Below are positions 4,015 to 44,501 of a stretch of DNA of 62,533 nucleotides, in pieces. The translations under genes and the position numbers were made by a program. A model generated the notes under the pieces. It saw only the letters and a program-made list of their open reading frames with translations. It was not told where the DNA came from and ran no database searches. The stretch's first letter is position 1. Every line of letters starts with the position of its first letter. The stretch is from a virus: positions 1 through 62,533 of IMG/VR virus record IMGVR_UViG_3300022221_000007. The stretch is one strand, 5' to 3'.

Positions 4015-6033
4015 TCAAGGCATCAGAAAGTTCACAGACTCCAACGCTTTGTTTGGGGCGTTGCCCACCAAAAGCTTTGGTGCTGGAACATAACGCTCTA
4101 ATCGATCAGCAATCTGATCAAGAGCATCTTGCATTAAATTGTTATCACGCAAGTAACTAAAGAATTCCTGACAAACTTTAGTCACTGCTTCAAACATATC
4201 CGGCATGACAATATAGTCATCATGCTTAACCAAGAAGGATTCACCTTTGTCCAACAGCATACGAGTAATTCTGCGAAGCAGAGTGCCATCGATACTGTGG
4301 GTCAAATTGGCAAACAACCCTCGAGTCTTAACATTGGTACCTTTATGGCTATGGGCAGTAGTGTTCTCACGACCAAAAATAGGCATACCTCTACGATCCA
4401 ATGCCAAAGGCATAGTAGCCATAATCTTGTATTCCTTATGGAATTTGCCCTCGATACGGGTAGATGCAGCAAAAACTGAGAACGGAGTACGTTCCATAAC
4501 GGCTTGGTGAAATGCAGTCAAACCATCATCAGTCTTCCACTTAAGAACATTCTGCGTGTTAGTAACCACATCAGCACCCCAGGCAGCAATCAAGTCAATG
4601 TTATCCACCTCAATACCGTAGGCTTCAACATTGTGCTGATCGACAGACTCAACCGTAAAGTCGTCAGGATTCTCGACATGATTGTGAAGAATCTTAACGA
4701 TAGTCTGAACAGAGGAGCCATGTAACAACGGAGTATGAATCTCTTTAACTGCTCTCCTGCCTAAGTGCATGACACCCTGAGCTGTACCAAATTGAGTATG
4801 AGAGTCATTAACACAATCCTGTCCCATTAGGTTGCCGGCAGTCAGCATCTGCTCTGAGCCACTACAAGAGGCCAGCATGATCAATCCTGAGTTAGTTAAA
4901 TCCTTACCCAACATATAATGGCAAGGAATACCTGCCAAAGTCATCTCAATAGCCCTAGCAGCCTTCAACACATTGATAGCTTCACCACAACGATCTTCAA
5001 ACTTACGGAACTTATCGTGGGTAAGTTCACTGTACTTAACACCCGGCAACGGAACATTTAAAGGGTCTTGCTCCAATGCCCAGATGTAGTCTTCATCACT
5101 AAACCGATTAACAGAATCAAGCTCAGTCATCTTTCCATATCGAGCATCACAAATAATGTGCTTGCAAGTGTTGATAGCTGACTCACCCAGGAGCTTAGGC
5201 TTGTAAGCATCCAACATAGCCACTTCAAATAACTTACCTTGAGGACGGAAGCCATAAAGGGCATTGGCATCATAATAGGTACGGTATCTGCTGCAGTGGT
5301 TAACCGGTAGATAAAACTTCTCCTTAGCAACCAACTCCTTAGCAGCAGCCATGTAATCCACGTTAAACCGTCTGTGACGCTTCACACGCTTCTCATTCTT
5401 AGTTTCGGCATGGTACAGAGCAGAACCCTTATAAAAGTGACTCAGGCGTTCCTCAGTCCATACATCAGACACCTTAAACGGTATAGATGCCTGTTCCATA
5501 TCCATTTGGATCTGATGACGAGGTAACCGTTCAAAGCCAACAAACTTAGACCGCACTATCCCAGGCTCGTCTTCATACCCAACCAAATGGTTAGTAGGCT
5601 CCGGTGTACCACCCAAAATAATAGTAGTCAGGTTGCGCTTACGAACATGACCAGTATCAGGATCAGTATGAGCAACAAGGTTAACCCGACTGGTAACAAT
5701 TTTGTTATCCAACATCAGCTCAACCAAAAGAGCTGCCATAGTGTGACTGACCAATGCCTTATCGAAGTTACTCATACCGGTAGGCCTACGGAACTTAAGG
5801 GCTCCCAGCTTTTTCTCAATCTTTCCTTCCAAAGACTCAATAGCCAACTCGTCATTGTTAGCTTTAAGATGCATAACAATTTTCTCGATCTTCTTACTGT
5901 TAGTTTCCCAAAACTCAGGAGACAAGAAGATCTTATGGGCTACCTTAGTAGGCTCAGCCATATTGGGATATGCCAGCTGGCACTCAGCAAAAGCTAGACG
6001 AAGGTTAGACAAACTAAACTTTAAAATTTCCAT
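4015..6033 (-). CDS. Single-chain phage RNA polymerase (N4 RNAPII-like, T7 superfamily)
   Basis: A 672-aa polymerase expected to transcribe middle phage genes. The ATG at 6033 is chosen because GGAG lies 8 nt upstream; an ATG five codons earlier overlaps that site. Motif A is GKDLTNSG with Asp378. Motif B has Arg426 and Lys430 spaced as T7 Arg627/Lys631. Motif C is HDD with Asp605. The position matching T7 Tyr639 in YGS is His438 in HGS. In N4, RNAPII is made of two chains (gp15 and gp16, about 30 and 45 kDa) whose summed size is close to this single protein. There is no N-terminal promoter-recognition domain of T7 size. It may need a recruiting factor, as N4 RNAPII needs gp2. Confidence 0.88.
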   Translation of the reverse strand: MEILKFSLSNLRLAFAECQLAYPNMAEPTKVAHKIFLSPEFWETNSKKIEKIVMHLKANNDELAIESLEGKIEKKLGALKFRRPTGMSNFDKALVSHTMAALLVELMLDNKIVTSRVNLVAHTDPDTGHVRKRNLTTIILGGTPEPTNHLVGYEDEPGIVRSKFVGFERLPRHQIQMDMEQASIPFKVSDVWTEERLSHFYKGSALYHAETKNEKRVKRHRRFNVDYMAAAKELVAKEKFYLPVNHCSRYRTYYDANALYGFRPQGKLFEVAMLDAYKPKLLGESAINTCKHIICDARYGKMTELDSVNRFSDEDYIWALEQDPLNVPLPGVKYSELTHDKFRKFEDRCGEAINVLKAARAIEMTLAGIPCHYMLGKDLTNSGLIMLASCSGSEQMLTAGNLMGQDCVNDSHTQFGTAQGVMHLGRRAVKEIHTPLLHGSSVQTIVKILHNHVENPDDFTVESVDQHNVEAYGIEVDNIDLIAAWGADVVTNTQNVLKWKTDDGLTAFHQAVMERTPFSVFAASTRIEGKFHKEYKIMATMPLALDRRGMPIFGRENTTAHSHKGTNVKTRGLFANLTHSIDGTLLRRITRMLLDKGESFLVKHDDYIVMPDMFEAVTKVCQEFFSYLRDNNLMQDALDQIADRLERYVPAPKLLVGNAPNKALESVNFLMP

Positions 6034-8853: not shown

Positions 8854-8935
8854 AATACTCTCCCTATTCACAAGGATCTGCCTCATCAGTACAGAGAGAT
8901 CATTCTCTGCAGACACCCAACTAAGGGTGTTTCGG

Positions 8936-9145
8936 CTAGTGAGCTTGAACAGTAATCACTGGCTCAGAAGTCACAACTAAGTGAACGCCAGTAACCACAA
9001 GGATTAAGAGTGTCAGTAACCAAGATCCAATCGTCTCAACTGACGTACCCTCAAGGAGTCCAGACACCATAAACAGGCTAATAAGGACCGAGACAACAAG
9101 ACTAATTACTAACAGGAACAGGCCAATGATAAATGCAGGTTTCAT
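8936..9145 (-). CDS. Small two-span membrane protein, 69 aa
   Basis: Start at the ATG at 9145 (MKPAFIIGLFLLVISLVVS) after TTGGAGAAATCT. Two hydrophobic segments, about residues 4-28 and 40-58, are joined by a short acidic loop. It could be an inner-membrane accessory protein such as an antiholin-like or superinfection factor, but nothing specific identifies it. A 7-bp stem, 3-nt loop hairpin lies 15-31 nt upstream of the ATG. Confidence 0.6.
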   Translation of the reverse strand: MKPAFIIGLFLLVISLVVSVLISLFMVSGLLEGTSVETIGSWLLTLLILVVTGVHLVVTSEPVITVQAH

Positions 9146-9625: not shown

Positions 9626-9749
9626 AATGTTTCTCCAATTGACTTTGGTTTGGGTCCCATCTGCAGAATGCGGGGGGGTACCCTGTTGGTACATAGGATC
9701 ATTCCTATATACTGCATCTGCATAATTTTAAAAATTTGCTAATGGATTT

Positions 9750-9835: not shown

Positions 9836-10060
9836 ATGAGTGGTGTTAGCCCTAAAATCTATTTTGAGAATACAGATGCCGTGGCTGGTGCGGATATATT
9901 TGATGTGAGAACTCAGACAGCGATCCTGGCTGATTGGTTGGTAGCTAATTTATCGGATAACAAGATGCGAACAAGAGCTTTGAATTCTTTACGTCGAGTA
10001 GAGAGTGATGCTATTGAAGCAATTGTTTATGATATTGAAAATGGTACAACTCCGGTCTAA
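9836..10060 (+). CDS. Small hypothetical protein, 74 aa
   Basis: First rightward gene, with AATGAGGAAAAAACT before the ATG. It reads MSGVSPKIYFENTDAVAGAD; two predicted helices with LADWLVANLSDNKMRTRALNSLRRVES follow. It is soluble and weakly acidic, with no motif recognised. The isolated position at the divergent control region hints at a regulator, but this is inference. Confidence 0.6.
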   Translation: MSGVSPKIYFENTDAVAGADIFDVRTQTAILADWLVANLSDNKMRTRALNSLRRVESDAIEAIVYDIENGTTPV

Positions 10061-10098
10061 TAGTTATTAATAAAGTAATGCGAAGGAAGGTTAGTGAG

Positions 10099-10147
10099 AA
10101 CATTTGTGTTGAAGGAAGGAGCGCAGCGACTGAGTGACACAAATGTT
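10099..10147. repeat. 11-bp perfect inverted repeat
   Basis: AACATTTGTGT (10099-10109) and ACACAAATGTT (10137-10147) are exact complements with a 27-nt interior. The run GAAGGAAGG occurs just before and again inside the element. No T-run follows on the plus strand, so it is not a simple terminator. It may be an operator or part of a replication region. Confidence 0.6.
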
Positions 10148-10233
10148 TGAACTAAACTTTCTTGGTATTAGTTTATTAATATGTATGTTTCAAATAAAGC
10201 CCTGTGTATCCCCTTGGGATACCAGTATTAGGA

Positions 10234-10248
10234 CGAAGCTCCGCTTCG
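10234..10248 (+). promoter_or_regulatory. Hairpin with the N4 P2 vRNAP promoter core
   Basis: CGAAGC-TCC-GCTTCG is a perfect 6-bp stem with a 3-nt loop. On the minus strand the core reads GAAGCGGAGCTTC, which I recall as the template-strand hairpin of N4 early promoter P2, loop GGA included. With the minus strand as template, transcription would run rightward into the RepL/Tad2 operon. The bases at the predicted +1 do not show the template CC used in N4, so the match is to the hairpin only. Confidence 0.5.
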
Positions 10249-10297: not shown

Positions 10298-10372
10298 GGC
10301 ACACCACCACCCGTCTTTTATTTCATAAGAGGCAAAACCCCGTTTTGTCTTATTATGAAAGGGTGGTGTGCC
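10298..10372. repeat. Long hairpin/cruciform with 3-nt loop
   Basis: GGCACACCACC pairs with GGTGGTGTGCC, TTTCATAA with TTATGAAA, and GGCAAAAC with GTTTTGTC around a CCC loop (10339-10341). The left arm carries about ten extra unpaired bases. This is the longest hairpin seen in the window. It sits upstream of the RepL-like gene and could be part of an origin or a transcription signal. Confidence 0.6.
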
Positions 10373-10567
10373 AGTGCAAAAGCTTACGGTTATCTTATAC
10401 GGTTATTGAGAAAGAACGTCTTCGACGGTTCCCTTGGTCGCTACGCTCCCTGTAAGAGTATATAGGGAGAGATGGTAGATGTGCTGTAAGTCATTGATTC
10501 GTAAGGATTTAATTTTTCTAGGGGGTGACTGGGGTGTCTCTTTTTGTGGTCCGTGGTGTCACAAAAC

Positions 10568-10614
10568 GGGGTAATTGTGTTTACTAAGGAACACGTTTGT
10601 ACTACAATTACCCC
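10568..10614 (+). promoter_or_regulatory. Promoter overlapped by an 11-bp palindromic operator
   Basis: GGGGTAATTGT (10568-10578) and ACAATTACCCC (10604-10614) are exact complements. Between and over the right arm lies a good sigma70 promoter: TTTACT (10580-10585), 17 nt, TACAAT (10603-10608). The -10 box is buried in the right arm, the geometry of a repressor or autoregulated initiator site. It drives the RepL-like gene 40 nt downstream. AAGGAACAC occurs in the spacer and again at the gene's ribosome binding site. Confidence 0.6.
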
Positions 10615-10650
10615 TAAATCAGCCCCTAACGTATTCATTAAGGAACACAC

Positions 10651-11070
10651 ATGACCAATAAAGTGACACCTAAAGCCCGATATGGCGTAATCAACTTAGA
10701 TACCGGTGAGATTCAACCTTTCGATGTTTATGAGGGGAAGAAGGAAGGACGATGGGAAAAGGTTTATGCTCAGGCCTTGGTAGATATGCTCAACATCACG
10801 AGTGAAACCAAGACTAAGATTATTGCTTACATGATTAAGAATAAAGATTACAACAATGTCGTGATGGCATCAGTCAGAAAAATTGCCACAGAAACCGGAT
10901 GTAGCTCCCGTACCGTTCAAAGAACTTTGGATCTCTTAGTGGAGAATAGTTTTATTCAGAGATTGCAGAATGGGGTGTTGATGTTTTCTCCTCACATTAT
11001 GAGGACCGGAAGAACTGGCCAGGGTATTGCCGTAATCCGACAGTGGGAAGATGGCCAGAATTTTGAATAG
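10651..11070 (+). CDS. RepL-like replication initiator / winged-helix protein
   Basis: 139 aa with AAGGAACACAC as binding site. The order matches plasmid RepL proteins: YGVINLDTGEIQ at the start, then a conserved helix (VDMLNITSETKTKIIAYMIKNKD), a winged-helix block (IATETGCSSRTVQRTLDLLVENSFIQ) and an LQNGVLMFSP wing. RepL proteins initiate plasmid replication. In a phage the same fold can act as regulator. A palindrome overlaps its promoter, which suggests autoregulation. I know of no such initiator in N4, which replicates with its own polymerase and helicase. No integrase or partition gene is visible. Confidence 0.7.
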   Translation: MTNKVTPKARYGVINLDTGEIQPFDVYEGKKEGRWEKVYAQALVDMLNITSETKTKIIAYMIKNKDYNNVVMASVRKIATETGCSSRTVQRTLDLLVENSFIQRLQNGVLMFSPHIMRTGRTGQGIAVIRQWEDGQNFE

Positions 11071-11131
11071 TTGCAAACCAGTAGTTAAGTGTACTAGACT
11101 ATTCACATTAAATTAACCAAAGCAGAAAGAT

Positions 11132-11371
11132 ATGACTACTCAAACACCTATTGAAGCCTATTTACTAACATCCGAATCGAAGGCGGTTAAAGTTCTGCTT
11201 TGGCTGCTAAAGAACCGGGATAGAGAAAATATTATTATCACAACTCTGGATACTGTAGCTGAAGAGTGTGATGTAACTAAAGTAACCGTTAACCGGGTAT
11301 TCCAAAATTTGTATAAAGCAGATTTTTTGGTGAAGGTTAAGAACGGTCAATACAAACTGATGAAGGTTTAA
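11132..11371 (+). CDS. Small winged-helix DNA-binding protein, 79 aa
   Basis: An N-terminal helix (SESKAVKVLLWLLKNRD) is followed by a helix-turn-helix (TVAEECDVTKVTVNRVFQNLYKADFLVKV) and a short wing ending YKLMKV. The layout parallels the second half of the RepL-like protein upstream, so it may be a shortened paralog or a partner repressor. Its binding site is AAAGCAGAAAGAT. It is followed at 4 nt by the Tad2-like gene. Confidence 0.65.
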   Translation: MTTQTPIEAYLLTSESKAVKVLLWLLKNRDRENIIITTLDTVAEECDVTKVTVNRVFQNLYKADFLVKVKNGQYKLMKV

Positions 11372-11375
11372 GATT

Positions 11376-11924
11376 ATGTATGATAGAAATACTGATCCTT
11401 ATGGAGAGCTTTCCAAAGTAAGAATGCCAATAAACCCTTTGATTGAAGCTCCAACGTATATTGGCACCAAAGTGATTACAGGTGCTCCTATAACTTTAGG
11501 TGAGTACAACAAATACCGTGGTTGGGAAATGCCAAAAGATGAAGACCCAAGAACACCTGGGTACATTGTTGAATATCAGGATGGGGGTAAAGCTAATCAC
11601 CCAAACCATAAAAATTATATCAGCTGGTCACCTCGTAATGTGTTTGAAGAAGCTTATCGATTAACTGAAGGTTTGCCGTTTGGCCTAGCAGTAGAGGCGG
11701 CAAAGAAAGGTAAACGTATTGCCCGGTTAGGCTGGAATGGTGCTGATATGTTTGCTTTTATTGAAATGAACGAAGAACAGTTCCTGACTGTTTGGAAAGG
11801 TGAAGATTTCACTAATCATCCTAAACGTCCCTGTTGGTATTTGAAAACTGCACAAAATGATATTGCGACTTGGGCGCCATCAGGTTCTGACACACTAGCT
11901 GATGACTGGGTTATTTTAAATTAA
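11376..11924 (+). CDS. Tad2-like (DUF2829) protein, putative anti-Thoeris factor
   Basis: 182 aa. The C-terminal 85 residues carry the DUF2829 signature: FGLAVEAAKKGKRIARLGWNG, then DMFAFIE, and APSGSDTLADDWVIL at the end. DUF2829 proteins include Tad2, which binds the signalling nucleotide of Thoeris defence and blocks its effector. The first 95 residues (EYNKYRGW...GYIVEYQDGG...YISWSP) are an added domain seen fused to DUF2829 in other phages. Residues GWNG and the final DDW, typical of the binding pocket, are present. Its place in the first rightward operon fits early expression. Activity is inferred. Confidence 0.8.
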   Translation: MYDRNTDPYGELSKVRMPINPLIEAPTYIGTKVITGAPITLGEYNKYRGWEMPKDEDPRTPGYIVEYQDGGKANHPNHKNYISWSPRNVFEEAYRLTEGLPFGLAVEAAKKGKRIARLGWNGADMFAFIEMNEEQFLTVWKGEDFTNHPKRPCWYLKTAQNDIATWAPSGSDTLADDWVILN

Positions 11925-16265: not shown

Positions 16266-16618
16266 TGCCAACTGTAGATCTCAAAGAAATGGTTCGAGGT
16301 GACACTTATGGGATCACCATGAACTTTAAGACCAAAGACGGAACTCCTATAGACGTTGAGGGTAGAAAACTAACCTTCACGATGAAACACCACTGGTCTG
16401 AGCCTGATGTAGACTCAGCTATACAAAAAGTAGTTGACCTGGTAGCCCCGGATGTTTCTGCCCAGAATGGGCAAGCTTATATTTTACTGTCTACCGTAGA
16501 AACCGATGTCACTCCAAGTAAGTATGTTTATGACATCCAAATGGTTAACGGAGCTATTGTAACCACACTGCTTAAAGGTAATATTTTAGTCAGTGGTGAT
16601 ATTACTCAAGGGGTATAA
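16265..16618 (+). CDS. Small beta-rich tail-associated protein, 117 aa
   Basis: Beta-strand-rich: RGDTYGITMNFKTKDGTPIDVEGRKLTFTMK matches the N-terminal barrel type seen in baseplate or fibre-attachment proteins (BppU-like layout), followed by alternating strands. Probably an attachment module for the fibre genes downstream. Function inferred from composition and context. Confidence 0.55.
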   Translation: MPTVDLKEMVRGDTYGITMNFKTKDGTPIDVEGRKLTFTMKHHWSEPDVDSAIQKVVDLVAPDVSAQNGQAYILLSTVETDVTPSKYVYDIQMVNGAIVTTLLKGNILVSGDITQGV

Positions 16619-38234: not shown

Positions 38235-41200
38235 ATGCCTAACTTTTGTATTCCAGAGTCACAAATAGAGCAACTTCTTCGTAAAGTTGATATGAAAACT
38301 ATCAATGAATCTCAAGATAAAGAAGCTCGCATTAATATTTTTGATATTACTGCAGACATGGTTCGTGAGGTTATCACCAGCGGAAAAACAACGGCTATCG
38401 ATGATAAGCTTATATCCAGACCAGTACGCCAGAAGCTTAATGACGCTCTGAAGATTGACCCGGTTATGGATAAAAAAGTTAAAGCCTTTATCCAAAACCT
38501 ATCTGTTCAACACGCAGTAGAAACATCTGATAACCCTAATGTGAATAAGGCTGTTGCAGATAGAACGCTTAGGCAGGGCGGTACAGCCTTAAAAGAGATC
38601 ATGGATTCCATTGCGGGTGAGATAAATAAAGCAGCTAATAACGGTCTTAAAGTTACTGAAGTCAGTAACAAAGGACACCTACCAAACCTACCTCTTCACC
38701 GAGTTGCAGCCTCAATCGGCCGTAAAATCATGTACACCCAAGGTTTACGTTTTAAGAAAGCTGGTGGTGAGCAAGATCAGAATCTTAGTGCCTGGGTTGA
38801 AACCATGTATTACGCAACAGGCATGTCAGCTATTGAGAACCTGGAGAAAAACGGGTTCCTGACAATACATGAAGCTGGTACCGGTAAAATGGTAATTAAA
38901 GATTACCTGGACTCAATCGACTCTGAGCAAAAATTTGGTCCTGAAGATAAGGTAACTGATAGCATTCCCTCATTGGAACTGAACTTAGAAGCCTTTGGTG
39001 TGGAAACAACCGCAGCTAAACCTGCTAAAGAGATGGCTTTCTTTACAGATTTTGGTGCTGATGTTAGAGGGACTGAGTTAGGTGCCTATGACCAGGTTCT
39101 TAGAGCTATTGGCCTACTGTCACAACCTGCAACCTTCACCATGCCTAACATTGGTGAAGATGGCCCTGCTACTGAAAGTGATCGACATAACAATGATGTT
39201 TATGATCCCGGTGAAGTTATCAACAAAGCTCGTAAGGAAATTGGTGAAAACCCTACGTTCCTTCAAGGTAGTATTCATTCATTCTTCCAACAGCTTCATG
39301 AGCATCTTAAAGATGAAGATATGAGTGCTGCTCAGTGGTTGTCAGGTATTGAGGATAAAACTAAGCTGCAGAACCTATTCGGCTTAGAGCCCTACAGTGA
39401 TGCCTTAGCAGGGCAAGCCAGTGCAGCAGGAAGAAAGCTTTCTAAAAGCACTCCTCTAAATGATGTTATCGAGTATTATGACAGGCTTAAAGGCGATAGC
39501 CCGGTTCCTATCTACATGAATATGTTTGCCGGCAGAAACGCTCGTCTTTACTACGATAACAGCATATTGAATCCTCACAGCTCAAAACTTATCAGACATG
39601 CTATGGCGGTAGATCCCTATACCGTTAAGGTAGATTCTGATGCTTTCAAGTTCATGGTCGGCAAGGTAGCTATTCTTTTAGGCATGGAAGAAGATACCGG
39701 TGCGGTTATGGGTAATGGCAAAGTTACCGAACAAAGTAAAAAAGTTGACCGGGCTCTTGAAGCCTACATGAAATTTAGTTCTGCAGGGTCACTTAATAAA
39801 AAATTAGTTCAGCTAACAAAAATGAGTGAAGAATTTCCAAAGTTAGATTTTTCAGAACTAGTGTCTACCCTGGGGGCAGTACAGGATATCCAGGAGGGTC
39901 TGCTATCTGGTGAAGTAACATCTACTTACATGGTAAGTACTGATGCCACAGCTTCTGGTGGTCAGCTTACTTTCATGCAGGCTATTGGAGCAGACACCAA
40001 TAACGAGGAAGACTACGTTGAGCTAATGAAACAGCTTGGACTCTTCAAAGGCGAGAAGGAGGGTTCTCTTGAAGGCGTAGAAGACGTATATGGGATACTT
40101 AAAAGACGGTTAGAATTCTTTACTGAGAATAAGCAAGATCCTGATGCTCAGTCAGTAGCTGATACCCCAAAAACTGCAGCAATACGATCTACCGTTAAAA
40201 AGATCCAAAAAGTTCTGTTTGAAAATGACATAAGAAATATGTCAAAAATTCCAACTATGACTTTTATCTACCAGCAGACTAAAGGTGGTGCCAGGTCTTC
40301 AATGTCTAAAGACTTCGCTGACATGATTATTAAACAGCTTAGAAACCCTGTGATATCAAAAGATTTCAATGAACTAATTGATTTGGTTAATGAAATACTT
40401 GGCCATGATGAGAAATATACTACGCACCAAAGTTCTTATAAAAAACTGTTAAAGAACAGAGACTTAGATCTTGAACTTCGCACGAAAATTGCTGCTTCAG
40501 GTACTCCTGACTTTTTATATGACACACTAACGTCATCACTGACTAACAAGTACCTTAAAAAGTACCAAAATCGTGCTAAACGCATATTCGAGTTAGTTGA
40601 TAGTGAAGATGCTCTTAAAAATATAAGAGTAATGCCTGCCAGCTACGTTTTGTCTAATCCTTTAAAAGAGGGTGAGAGCTATACGTTGGAACAGTATGAA
40701 AAATATGGTTTAACCATGGGCAAGCAGTTTGAAGTACTTAACAATGTTGCCGGTGTTGATGTGCTTACTCGACCTGACAAGAATAGAGATACTGTTATGG
40801 GTGTGTCTTACATTCATGGAGCAGATACCTCTAATTTGTATCGATCTACTGAGGGTCTACCCACTAAGCACAAAACTGGACTAATCGTTGTACATGATGC
40901 TGTTTACTCAAGCCCTGAGTTGGTGATGGAGTTTGAGAAGAACTATGTTGAGGAAAATCGTCAGTTAGCGCTTAACTACGATATTCATGAGCAGGTTTTA
41001 AAATCTGTTGCTGCTTATGGTGGAAATACGTTGACTAGTAAAGCAAACTATACTAATCTAGTTGCAGAAGTCGAGGCAAGCAAAGCCCGTAAACAGCAAC
41101 TTTTGAAGGATAGTGAGAATGGCTACAATACTGAAACAACTAGCGTTATTGGGGACAGAATTGATTTTGAAGGAATTGACACAAAAAGTCCGTCAAGAAA

Positions 41201-44200
41201 AACGAGCACTGGAACCCAAACCAGTACGCAAGGTAAAGGCCAAGCGAAAAGCGGTAAACGCACTGCACAAAATGGCAAGCCAAAAACCAAAGCGTTCTCA
41301 AAACAGAGTGCATTAGAAATAATGGAGTCCTTATCTGAGGACTCTACTCTTATTCAGAAATTCCTATCTGCCAACCCTTCCGGTGTTAAAAAAGGTGATA
41401 CACCTCAGTACAGCACCAAAACTGATGTAATCACCATTGCCGGAGTAGATCCAAGAACAGGTAAAAAAGCTACCAAGAAAAAGCTGGTAGAACTTGTTGA
41501 ACATGAAGTTGTTCACAGCCTGACTTCTGGGATCGTATCCGATTGGGTATCAAACAAAAAATCCAGTGTTTCTGCAAACATGAATCTCGCGTATATCGAT
41601 AAGGCTGTTAAACGCCTAAGCCGGTTACGTGACCATGGTGAATTGAAGTTACCTAAAGCAGCAGCTGAAAGGGTTAACTACGTTTTAAACTCTCTTGAGG
41701 ATGATATAAGAATATCTGAGTTTATTGCCATAATGAGTACAGAACCTGAAACAGCTAAAGCCGTTTATAAGGTTTTAGGGAATGACCGTGGCAATCTCGA
41801 TAAGATCATTGAAAAGGTGGTAGCTAAGGTAAGAGAAATTTTAGCAACTATTACTGAAAAAGACTTTGAAACTTACAAGGTAGATAGTGAGAAATTGTAC
41901 TCAGCTGTTAACCAAGTCATTCAAGATGGTCAGTCTAGTCGTGAAGGTGATATTAACGCTCACAGAGCCTTAATGTCCTTGAGCAGCAATACAGAGCTAT
42001 TCGCAGCAGACCCTAACAACATTCTTAAAGAAGCCAGAGGAGCCGTTAACTACATAAACGCCGCAGTGGTTAGAAACATTAATGATCCAGCTGTTCGTAA
42101 AGCAGGTGATCTCACCAAAGCTATGGACAGCTACTTGAAAGTTAACTCTCCTATGTACCGTAGAGCCCTTCAACGCTTAAAGGGCATATACGACGATTCA
42201 GAGGCGTTACAGAGCTTAGTCCATAAAATCACAAATGCTGATATTAACAGTGAAAAGAAAAATGAAGTCCAATCGCTGTTTGTTGCATTAAGAGCTACTA
42301 AAAATGAGGTAATCAGTAAAGAGCTTGAAAAATTCAGTGCTATTACCAGTAAAATGTCTGATGAAGAAAAAGAAGCTTTCTTTGACTTCACGCACAAAAT
42401 GGCAATGCAGGACTACTTTCTGTTTGCTGAAGAAGTTACCGACATCGATGCTGAGATAGCTGAGATTGAAGAAATGCATTTTGACAAGCAGCAAGTGGAG
42501 TCTTTAGAGTCTATTGTCAGCATGAACGTAGATGATGAAGTTACTATGCGTACTCACTACAATGTAGATTCAGTAGGGTTCTCAGGAGAACTTAAAAATC
42601 ATGCCAGAAAATTGGTAGTTCTAAAATCTATCAAAAAGCTTGGCGAAGACCGGTTTAACTCGATGAAAGAAAATACTGAGTTAATGGAGCTAATCCGGGA
42701 TAACACCCTGGCTCATGAAGCGTTAATCGCTGAAGGTAGTCTTCAGAATAGTATGGTTCGAGATCACAAACTAAAAGATACTTACGCTGAACCAATAACA
42801 GCTATTGCTATCACTATGGAAGATGCTGATAAGTTCAGTTACACGGAAAAGTCTGGTTGGACAATGGTAGTTAAACCTACAAAAGATAGGTTGGGGGTGG
42901 TTTACAGAAAAGAAATTGACGGGACTTACCAGGAAGGGATGTTTACCGACATCAGAACTGAGAGTGGCGACATTACTGTAAAGGCTAAGCACAGAGACAT
43001 GCCTGGTGTGGTAAAAGTAGGTGACCGGTATAAGCTGATTATCTCTCAGAAAGACAAGGAAAAAATGGGATTAGTTAAAGATGCTTCTCAGAGCTTGGTT
43101 AGAAGCATGGCTCACACCATGACTATTAAAGAATCTGAGGGTATCCGGAATAAGCTACTGGAAAAAGATACTTATTGGGATATGAACGAAAAGAACATGG
43201 AAGATTTAAGAACTATTATTATGGACCCTAAACGGGATCACCCATGGTTCTTAGGAGCTAAAGAGGGAGTTATTTATGATGATTTACCCGCAAAAGTAAA
43301 AGCCCGGTATATGCCAATTGCTTCTACTAAACTTTCTGATTCTGCTAACTTTGACCAAAAAATTCAGTATGTCCGTAAAGACATAAGTTACTGGTTAGTT
43401 GGAGCAAAAGAAGAGTCATTAGCTAAGGATCCAAAACTTAAGTGGGCATTGCGAATCACTAAGGACTTAATAGCAGGGGCTAAAATCGGGATGGTAGTTA
43501 CTAACCCGGCTAAGATTTTGGCGGATAATATGTCTAACGTAGCTTACCTGGGTGTTATGGGAGTTGATCCATTAACAATACAGAAAAACTACCGGGAAAT
43601 CAGTAAGCAGTATAACGATTATCAGAAAGCTAAAAACATTCTGAATAACCTTCGAGTTAAGGCTTATGCTAATCCTAAAAAATATGGCAATCAGATAAAG
43701 CAGATGGAACGTAAATTAAAAGAAATGCCGGCGAATGGATTTGTCGAAAGAGGTTTTGTAAGTTCCATGGGTTCTGAACTGGTTATGCAGACGAATGATC
43801 CATCTTCAGGATTCAAGAGTGATATTGATACAGTTCTGAAAACAGTACTCCAGGACAAGTCAGGCAAGCATAACAAGGTAGCTAAATTCCTAATGGACTT
43901 TTCTAAGTATGGGAATGTTGGAATGGAAGACTTTTTAGAAACCTGGGCTAAACCTTTTGGAAAACTGGATTCGACACAAGTTATAGAGAGCGAACTGGAA
44001 AGAATGGCTGAAAGACTGAGACACATTAAGTCTGAAGACGATGTAGTTTCCTATATGCACCAGTACTTAAACAGTCCTGATAGTGAATTCGTTAAGCTTG
44101 GAAGTCACATGACGGATCTAACGGATATTTTAGCAAAAGAAACTTACTACAGATATTTAGTAGAAGAAGGAATGGATGCTAAGAAAGCGGAACTGGAAGT

Positions 44201-44501
44201 TATTGATTCATTTCCGGATTATAAGGAAGGATTGCCAACAAGAGTTAAGCAACTAAGTGATGTGGGTATTTTGATGTTTCCTACTTACTGGCTTAGAGTC
44301 CAGAAAGCAATCTACCGAATGGCTAAAAATAAGCCAGTTAGTTTTGGTACGGAAATGGTAATTGAAGAGATGGCTGAAATTGAAGCACCTACAATATGGG
44401 ATGCTAATATTTGGAATAAAGCTACCACGTTCCATGGCCTATTCCACACCCCTTGGCAAAATATTGGGGTTAACAGTTTAATACCTAAGTACATCTACTA
44501 A
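38235..44501 (+). CDS. Virion RNA polymerase, catalytic chain with embedded zincin domain
   Basis: 2088 aa. The polymerase core lies in the first half: TxxGR-type region AGRNARLYY...NPH near 430, motif A STDATASGG with Asp570, motif B Arg667-Lys671-Tyr679 with exactly T7 spacing (627/631/639), motif C HDA with Asp888. Then a MPTase-PolyVal-like zincin: HEVVH at 1090-1094 and EFIA near 1162. A long helical C-terminal region (1200-2088) has no known motif and in N4 is needed for packaging. It is injected with the DNA in N4 and transcribes early genes from hairpin promoters. Start ATG lies 7 nt after the preceding stop, with a weak GTGAG signal. Confidence 0.88.
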   Translation: MPNFCIPESQIEQLLRKVDMKTINESQDKEARINIFDITADMVREVITSGKTTAIDDKLISRPVRQKLNDALKIDPVMDKKVKAFIQNLSVQHAVETSDNPNVNKAVADRTLRQGGTALKEIMDSIAGEINKAANNGLKVTEVSNKGHLPNLPLHRVAASIGRKIMYTQGLRFKKAGGEQDQNLSAWVETMYYATGMSAIENLEKNGFLTIHEAGTGKMVIKDYLDSIDSEQKFGPEDKVTDSIPSLELNLEAFGVETTAAKPAKEMAFFTDFGADVRGTELGAYDQVLRAIGLLSQPATFTMPNIGEDGPATESDRHNNDVYDPGEVINKARKEIGENPTFLQGSIHSFFQQLHEHLKDEDMSAAQWLSGIEDKTKLQNLFGLEPYSDALAGQASAAGRKLSKSTPLNDVIEYYDRLKGDSPVPIYMNMFAGRNARLYYDNSILNPHSSKLIRHAMAVDPYTVKVDSDAFKFMVGKVAILLGMEEDTGAVMGNGKVTEQSKKVDRALEAYMKFSSAGSLNKKLVQLTKMSEEFPKLDFSELVSTLGAVQDIQEGLLSGEVTSTYMVSTDATASGGQLTFMQAIGADTNNEEDYVELMKQLGLFKGEKEGSLEGVEDVYGILKRRLEFFTENKQDPDAQSVADTPKTAAIRSTVKKIQKVLFENDIRNMSKIPTMTFIYQQTKGGARSSMSKDFADMIIKQLRNPVISKDFNELIDLVNEILGHDEKYTTHQSSYKKLLKNRDLDLELRTKIAASGTPDFLYDTLTSSLTNKYLKKYQNRAKRIFELVDSEDALKNIRVMPASYVLSNPLKEGESYTLEQYEKYGLTMGKQFEVLNNVAGVDVLTRPDKNRDTVMGVSYIHGADTSNLYRSTEGLPTKHKTGLIVVHDAVYSSPELVMEFEKNYVEENRQLALNYDIHEQVLKSVAAYGGNTLTSKANYTNLVAEVEASKARKQQLLKDSENGYNTETTSVIGDRIDFEGIDTKSPSRKTSTGTQTSTQGKGQAKSGKRTAQNGKPKTKAFSKQSALEIMESLSEDSTLIQKFLSANPSGVKKGDTPQYSTKTDVITIAGVDPRTGKKATKKKLVELVEHEVVHSLTSGIVSDWVSNKKSSVSANMNLAYIDKAVKRLSRLRDHGELKLPKAAAERVNYVLNSLEDDIRISEFIAIMSTEPETAKAVYKVLGNDRGNLDKIIEKVVAKVREILATITEKDFETYKVDSEKLYSAVNQVIQDGQSSREGDINAHRALMSLSSNTELFAADPNNILKEARGAVNYINAAVVRNINDPAVRKAGDLTKAMDSYLKVNSPMYRRALQRLKGIYDDSEALQSLVHKITNADINSEKKNEVQSLFVALRATKNEVISKELEKFSAITSKMSDEEKEAFFDFTHKMAMQDYFLFAEEVTDIDAEIAEIEEMHFDKQQVESLESIVSMNVDDEVTMRTHYNVDSVGFSGELKNHARKLVVLKSIKKLGEDRFNSMKENTELMELIRDNTLAHEALIAEGSLQNSMVRDHKLKDTYAEPITAIAITMEDADKFSYTEKSGWTMVVKPTKDRLGVVYRKEIDGTYQEGMFTDIRTESGDITVKAKHRDMPGVVKVGDRYKLIISQKDKEKMGLVKDASQSLVRSMAHTMTIKESEGIRNKLLEKDTYWDMNEKNMEDLRTIIMDPKRDHPWFLGAKEGVIYDDLPAKVKARYMPIASTKLSDSANFDQKIQYVRKDISYWLVGAKEESLAKDPKLKWALRITKDLIAGAKIGMVVTNPAKILADNMSNVAYLGVMGVDPLTIQKNYREISKQYNDYQKAKNILNNLRVKAYANPKKYGNQIKQMERKLKEMPANGFVERGFVSSMGSELVMQTNDPSSGFKSDIDTVLKTVLQDKSGKHNKVAKFLMDFSKYGNVGMEDFLETWAKPFGKLDSTQVIESELERMAERLRHIKSEDDVVSYMHQYLNSPDSEFVKLGSHMTDLTDILAKETYYRYLVEEGMDAKKAELEVIDSFPDYKEGLPTRVKQLSDVGILMFPTYWLRVQKAIYRMAKNKPVSFGTEMVIEEMAEIEAPTIWDANIWNKATTFHGLFHTPWQNIGVNSLIPKYIY

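Follow-up and report, generated by a model that had tools for sequence, protein, structure and literature searches.

The window, a 62,533-base IMG/VR record, follows the overall plan of Escherichia phage N4, with an early block on the minus strand, a late block on the plus strand (10.65-44.5 kb), and the gp69-gp68 order downstream. An ORF encoding 2088 amino acids (38235-44501) sits where Alteromonas phage PT11-V19 has its large 'RNA polymerase'. Two ORFs related to the RepL family were found in tandem on the plus strand (Table 1). The first one encodes a full-length RepL (PF05732; E = 1e-25, 90.6 bits versus a cut-off of 20.3 in a Pfam profile search), of which residues 4-133 align to positions 6-136 of the 164-position profile, covering the N-terminal region and the winged helix. 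The second one encodes a truncated RepL-like winged helix (E = 5e-7, 29.8 bits versus the same cut-off of 20.3) that covers profile positions 56-114 only and, being without the N-terminal region, lacks the full-profile feature. A preliminary description of this DNA had proposed a RepL-like protein followed by a small winged-helix relative, to be checked by an HMM search against RepL; this search confirmed both, as both ORFs matched PF05732 above the cut-off. On sequence grounds, membership of the RepL family is solid. The window RepL is 45-60% identical to its counterparts in two Alteromonas phages, namely 59-60% to that of PT11-V19 and 45-46% to that of R22Y. AlphaFold2 predicted a winged-helix core for RepL (mean pLDDT 77.1) and a winged helix for the small paralog (pLDDT 89.5). 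The nearest solved folds to the RepL models were MarR and IclR regulators, with no neighbour at E ≤ 0.001 among the solved structures, and such predicted fold neighbourhood does not decide between an initiator and a regulator. Upstream of the paralog gene, the TTG of the -35 box and the TAnACT of the -10 box were invariant in four aligned genomes. The same promoter layout was seen by eye in the IMG/VR loci L027, L028, L037, and L055, a clear -35 box being present in some of the loci inspected only. Directly after the RepL pair, a protein with a Tad2-like (Thoeris anti-defence) domain is encoded (11376-11924).

Table 1. Features at and around the repL locus; coordinates are those of the window unless another genome is named.
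Feature	Position	Strand	Basis
Type II hammerhead ribozyme	8872-8937; PT11-V19 (L001) 4388-4457; R22Y (L006) 16397-16462; L032 2239-2304	-	Rfam
Terminus-associated element GGGTCCC-N-GGGGGGTA	9652-9680	+	Homology with R22Y; marks likely genome end
AGTATATAGGGAGA element preceding the AT-rich block	10457-10470	+	Single match in window; alignment
AT-rich block GTAAGTCATTGATTCGTAAGGATTT, proposed unwinding element	10486-10510	+	Single match in window
Two degenerate 22-bp repeats, iteron-like	10523-10566 (10523-10544, 10545-10566)	+	Spacing and position as in PT11-V19, R22Y, L008
Inverted repeat, left arm (GGGGTAATTGT)	10568-10578	+	Sequence; not conserved in relatives
Sigma-70-like repL promoter candidate TTTACT-17-TACAAT	10580-10608	+	9 of 12 consensus bases
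Inverted repeat, right arm (ACAATTACCCC), overlaps -10-like hexamer	10604-10614	+	Sequence
RepL-family protein, 139 aa; proposed replication initiator	10651-11070	+	PF05732, identity to relatives, AlphaFold2
Small-paralog promoter TTGCAA-N18-TAGACT	11071-11100	+	Conserved in four aligned genomes
RepL-like winged-helix paralog, 79 aa; proposed modulator	11132-11371	+	PF05732, tree, AlphaFold2

Phage records with a match to the window terminase numbered 474, N4-like phages such as LIT1 among them, and in 440 the match spanned 80% or more of the query; a tblastn search with the 139-residue RepL matched five of 50,697 phage records, namely PT11-V19, R22Y, Pseudoalteromonas phage HS1 (two entries), and an inovirus. 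A RepL profile search of 21 chosen records gave ten matches, i.e., PT11-V19, R22Y, HS1, six IMG/VR genomes selected for their previously established RepL or paralog gene, and, below the cut-off, Burkholderia phage HN02. No match to this profile was found in N4 (NC_008720) and, HN02 being the eleventh, in ten of eleven other N4-like phages (LIT1, PG11, SBP1, pVa5, pVco-5, JSF3, Pollock, DSS3phi2, 1.188.B, and MIF8), in agreement with the earlier statement that N4 has no such initiator. An IMG/VR search with the terminases of four RepL-bearing phages retrieved 35 loci, 37 being tabulated with the window and R22Y. RepL and/or the paralog was present in 24 of the 37 loci, all 13 others having less than 2.6 kb of upstream sequence; the loci with at least 4 kb upstream were positive throughout (14/14, window included), a count to which L044-L046 and L050/L051 contribute apparent near-copies, L027 a weak match, and L028 no more than the paralog, an unassigned 148-residue protein taking the RepL position there. 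Relatives were missed when viral contigs were scanned with single RepL and paralog sequences and were found by alignment-based scans.

RepL occupies the same place in the window, PT11-V19, R22Y, and the terminase-anchored IMG/VR set, a group of marine N4-like phages: it opens the late gene block and precedes the terminase gene. PT11-V19 and R22Y share with the window RepL plus the small paralog, their order and place, and the upstream block described below, the upstream repeats being clearer in these two phages. HS1 and the IMG/VR loci L009 and L010 likewise carry RepL within a phage genome; unlike in the window, RepL heads a helicase/primase module in HS1 (a 37-kb circular record) and L010. 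A tree built from 37 proteins placed the small paralogs in one clade (100/99), which was joined to the RepLs of RepL-only phages (97/95). The RepLs of N4-like phages were not one clade, that of L008 grouping weakly with the HS1 group (80/83). Tailed-phage RepLs and paralogs were split from plasmid and inovirus sequences (98/92), several branches being long. This tree suggests that RepL has been exchanged at a fixed place and that the paralog derives from an earlier RepL.

Upstream of repL, the inverted repeat GGGGTAATTGT/ACAATTACCCC is perfect over 11 bp, and five of the six bases of the -10 box of the repL promoter candidate lie within its right arm. The 590-bp non-coding region contained three 11-bp inverted repeats versus 0.006 expected from dinucleotide shuffles, and the whole window contained 19 overlapping 11-mers (seven distinct inverted repeats) versus 1.4 expected, so that the repeat is above chance for its region, yet not unique within the window. 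The promoter candidate is not significant alone, since a scan of the window found six sites of this quality versus 8.1 expected from shuffles. From the initial proposal of a promoter with its -10 box in a perfect 11-bp palindrome, the repeat and the overlap thus stood, whereas the promoter did not rise above shuffles. The further proposal that the palindrome is an operator was not borne out. In the alignment of upstream regions, no copy of the palindrome was present in PT11-V19, R22Y, or L008, which share another layout; being unconserved in relatives, it is a poor operator candidate, and as a general operator it was rejected, being private to the window genome.

The four aligned upstream regions share a TATATA-type sequence, an AT-rich block (TAAGT-N-TGAT-N-TAA), and a stretch around CACAAAAC. 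In the window, the left-out score of the block (GTAAGTCATTGATTCGTAAGGATTT) ranked first among 125,018 positions, and in the relatives, inspection by eye showed ATATA-purine stretches like AGTATATAGGGAGA ahead of the block. When each locus was searched with a 25-nt model of this block, the block was the top-scoring position in all seven leave-one-out cases, and also in 7 of the 11 N4-like loci that had been held out. These included L028, in which the block is kept upstream of the 148-residue protein (4313-4759), which has no Pfam match and takes the place of RepL. The model missed the held-out loci L044, L050, L024, and L027, as well as HS1, L010, and Moritella. On the better strand, its peaks in 12 control N4-like loci spanned approximately 1.4-10.8, a range that includes the held-out scores of L041 (4.1) and L053 (9.2). 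Among the matches listed from scans with an 18-mer of the block, none of 120 viral loci and one of 100 genome loci had RepL downstream; such matches are dominated by chance, and the block alone is therefore not diagnostic. BLAST searches of the block against phages gave E-values of 0.06-0.7 only. A block match near the genome end of Lactococcus sk1, where the accessible part of PMC3445015 places an origin, was dropped as not significant.

Next to the block, repeats with a period of 22 bp occur. Of 16 N4-like RepL upstream regions, eight had 22 as their top lag with 13 or more matches out of 18, versus 20 of 2091 other 250-bp stretches; 22 was not the top lag in the remaining eight, nor in HS1, L010, and the inovirus. 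In this test, the anchors of L059, L048, L050, and L025 were shifted by eye ahead of an intervening ORF, and Staphylococcus pSh1187-5 (L073) was left out. In L032, L033, L008, and L037, the repeats are 20-bp imperfect palindromes with spacings of 22 and 32 bp. At a lag of 22, which ranked third among 53 lags, the repeats of the window gave 11 matches out of 18 (p = 0.076 from shuffles), a level attained by 9.6% of the window's own 250-bp stretches, and no dyad above the palindrome score was found in them. The repeats of the window are thus degenerate, and the case for them rests mainly on homology, from which we infer that they may be functional. As judged by eye and without statistics, the half-sites vary with the recognition helix of RepL, being GTGAC-like with RTVQRT in the window and PT11-V19, GGAC with KTVSRT in R22Y, and TCCCA with GTISNV in L008; the recognition helix of the small paralog is nearly constant (TKVTVNRVF). 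This fits RepL, and not the small paralog, as the candidate binder of the repeats.

The locus adjoins a probable genome end. The two ends of the R22Y record carry an exact 335-bp terminal repeat, which the accessible part of the R22Y paper gives from PhageTerm (PMC11705849). The repL gene of R22Y starts at 644, 309 bp inward of this repeat, and its 22-bp repeat array lies approximately 200 bp inward. The GGGTCCC...GGGGGGTA element lies within the R22Y terminal repeat (280-308) and was found upstream of repL in 13 of 17 RepL loci, the four misses having at most 1.5 kb of upstream sequence; it was present in none of 11 control N4-like loci and, unlike in the window, was not found in the stretches of N4 searched. 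By homology with R22Y, the element of the window places the genome end probably near 9.4-9.7 kb. The element could also be a packaging signal or an early promoter.

RepL plasmids such as pOM1, pMVIS41, pSK37064, and pHELV-5 share with the window the initiator family and repeats directly upstream of repL. Indeed, a lag of 22 was the top or joint top repeat upstream of repL in all six RepL plasmids tested (Moritella pMVIS41, Butyrivibrio pOM1, Campylobacter pSma2 and pHELV-5, and two Priestia plasmids). The AT-rich block is clearly common to the window and Virgibacillus pSK37064, which gave the best plasmid match to the phage block stretch (E = 4e-3), just upstream of repL; there, the block-like match is followed by palindromic 25-bp repeats, not 22-bp ones. 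Seven plasmids were checked for the block, which was recognised clearly in one and moderately in one. Of the 22 plasmid matches to the block stretch, a location upstream of repL was established for the top one only; another is a gene of Pantoea. The other 20 are nearly all one 2,953-bp plasmid that recurs across hosts (e.g., NZ_CP077993.1; one record of 3,292 bp) and matches the block stretch at 84.6%. Unlike these plasmids, the window and its relatives represent lytic phages of 62-71 kb with their own polymerase, primase, and helicases, in which repL adjoins the terminus and has a truncated paralog.

As far as its accessible text goes, PMC5703833 groups RepL (pfam05732) with the rolling-circle initiators, as proposed for the pSN2 plasmid family. 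It also mentions that a small basic ORF often accompanies RepL, that the DNA-binding specificity underlying incompatibility may be reflected in variation at RepL residues 85-95, and that copy control by RepL is unstudied. The phage RepL could accordingly start rolling-circle replication, and a tyrosine (Y39) is indeed invariant in 15 aligned sequences. However, the 139-residue RepL has a single histidine, which makes an HUH motif impossible, and the 22-bp repeats upstream of plasmid repL genes form an iteron-origin layout, so that a rolling-circle mode is improbable for the phage. The repeats in all six plasmids moreover question the filing of RepL under rolling-circle replication and point to an iteron-like origin. 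A Campylobacter RepL plasmid reported without iterons and suspected of rolling-circle replication (PMC11389370, accessible part) runs against extending this iteron reading to RepL in general.

The reading preferred here, with a probability of roughly 0.6, is that RepL initiates replication from an iteron-type origin close to the end of the genome, the case being strongest in the relatives and weaker in the window. The region of 10.45-11.37 kb would then amount to a plasmid-type replicon within the genome of a lytic N4-like phage. RepL dimers would bind the 22-bp-spaced repeats just upstream of repL, assist in melting the AT-rich block next to them, and bring in the helicase, primase, and polymerase that the phage encodes among its early genes. 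Replication would begin where the late genes begin, a short way inward of the genome end. The paralog, which has its own conserved host-type promoter, may modulate RepL or the origin. The observations behind this reading are the match of RepL over nearly the full profile, its order and position in the relatives, the presence of RepL or the paralog in 14/14 loci, the 22-bp repeats in phages and plasmids and their palindromic form in four loci, the ranking of the block and its match upstream of repL in pSK37064, the closeness of repL to the terminal repeat of R22Y, and the helicase/primase-type genes that follow repL in HS1 and L010. Against it stand the weak repeats of the window, the absence of a top lag of 22 from half of the N4-like loci and from HS1, L010, and the inovirus, the 25-bp repeats of Virgibacillus, the recognition of the block in two of seven plasmids only, the chance-dominated 18-mer scans, the location of RepL with the late genes instead of the early replication genes, and the fact that most N4-like phages do without RepL. 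Also, the AT-rich block could be a promoter instead. To our knowledge, little has been defined about how N4-type phages start to replicate their DNA, and none of the papers searched has both 'RepL' and 'Schitoviridae' as whole words. A candidate initiator and origin beside a terminal repeat can be tested in the existing isolate R22Y on Alteromonas marina.

The main rival, already raised in the preliminary description and still live although unlikely, is a repurposed transcription regulator acting on the tandem sites ahead of its own gene, which, with the small paralog as a partner, would time late transcription or repress itself. The place of RepL at the head of the late genes, the sites directly upstream of the promoter candidate, the MarR and IclR fold neighbours, and the two winged-helix genes in tandem agree with such a role. 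N4 late genes are transcribed by the host sigma-70 polymerase, according to the accessible part of PMC4496689, so that a DNA-bound regulator would make sense there. However, 22-bp repeats also precede plasmid repL genes that are annotated as replication genes, the block is present at a single site of the window, in contrast to a promoter shared by late genes, and winged-helix matches cannot tell initiators from regulators.

As to the separate replication mode envisaged initially, its origin-control part survives in the block and the 22-bp repeats, whereas a phage-plasmid phase, i.e., a circular element maintained by RepL, found no support and is very improbable. The plasmid-type initiator and the R22Y terminal repeat, which could recombine into a circle, are compatible with it. 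However, 41 mostly early minus-strand ORFs of the 62.5-kb record, which is probably incomplete, matched no partition, repressor, or integrase family at E ≤ 1e-4, and R22Y is described as lytic and without lysogeny genes in the accessible part of PMC11705849. The same 41 ORFs included members of the peptide deformylase, SPFH/Band 7, Nmad5 nucleotide-modification, and GIY-YIG endonuclease families.

A broader, tentative, and rather improbable extension of the initiator reading is that, in this N4-like clade, RepL and its own palindromic iterons form an initiator cassette that is swapped as a module between the fixed terminus element and the terminase genes, the block staying in place and a truncated earlier RepL being kept as a small regulator. 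RepL replicons of plasmids and phages would then generally have 22-bp iteron origins and not rolling-circle origins.

Several other elements occur around the locus. A perfect vRNAP-type hairpin with a GGA loop (10234-10248), of the sort seen at N4 early promoters, has no second example in the window and points towards repL; this hairpin and the palindrome are missing from PT11-V19 and R22Y. A control search of the first 9 kb of N4 gave three vRNAP-type hairpins, which we take to be the known early promoters of N4. A role of the window hairpin as an early repL promoter was rejected, since the relatives are without it and its start-site base differs from the one required by PMC4496689 in its accessible part. 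Two large imperfect hairpins were present in the non-coding stretch as well, one with 50-nt arms that are 80% complementary (10060-10186) and one with a GGCACACCACC/GGTGGTGTGCC stem (10298-10372) that would end in T on the minus strand. Five tRNA genes lie just upstream of repL in L008 (6098-6497). Finally, a type II hammerhead ribozyme above the Rfam cut-off was found in the early block of four of nine sources scanned, that of PT11-V19 lying just upstream of the early RNA polymerase gene.
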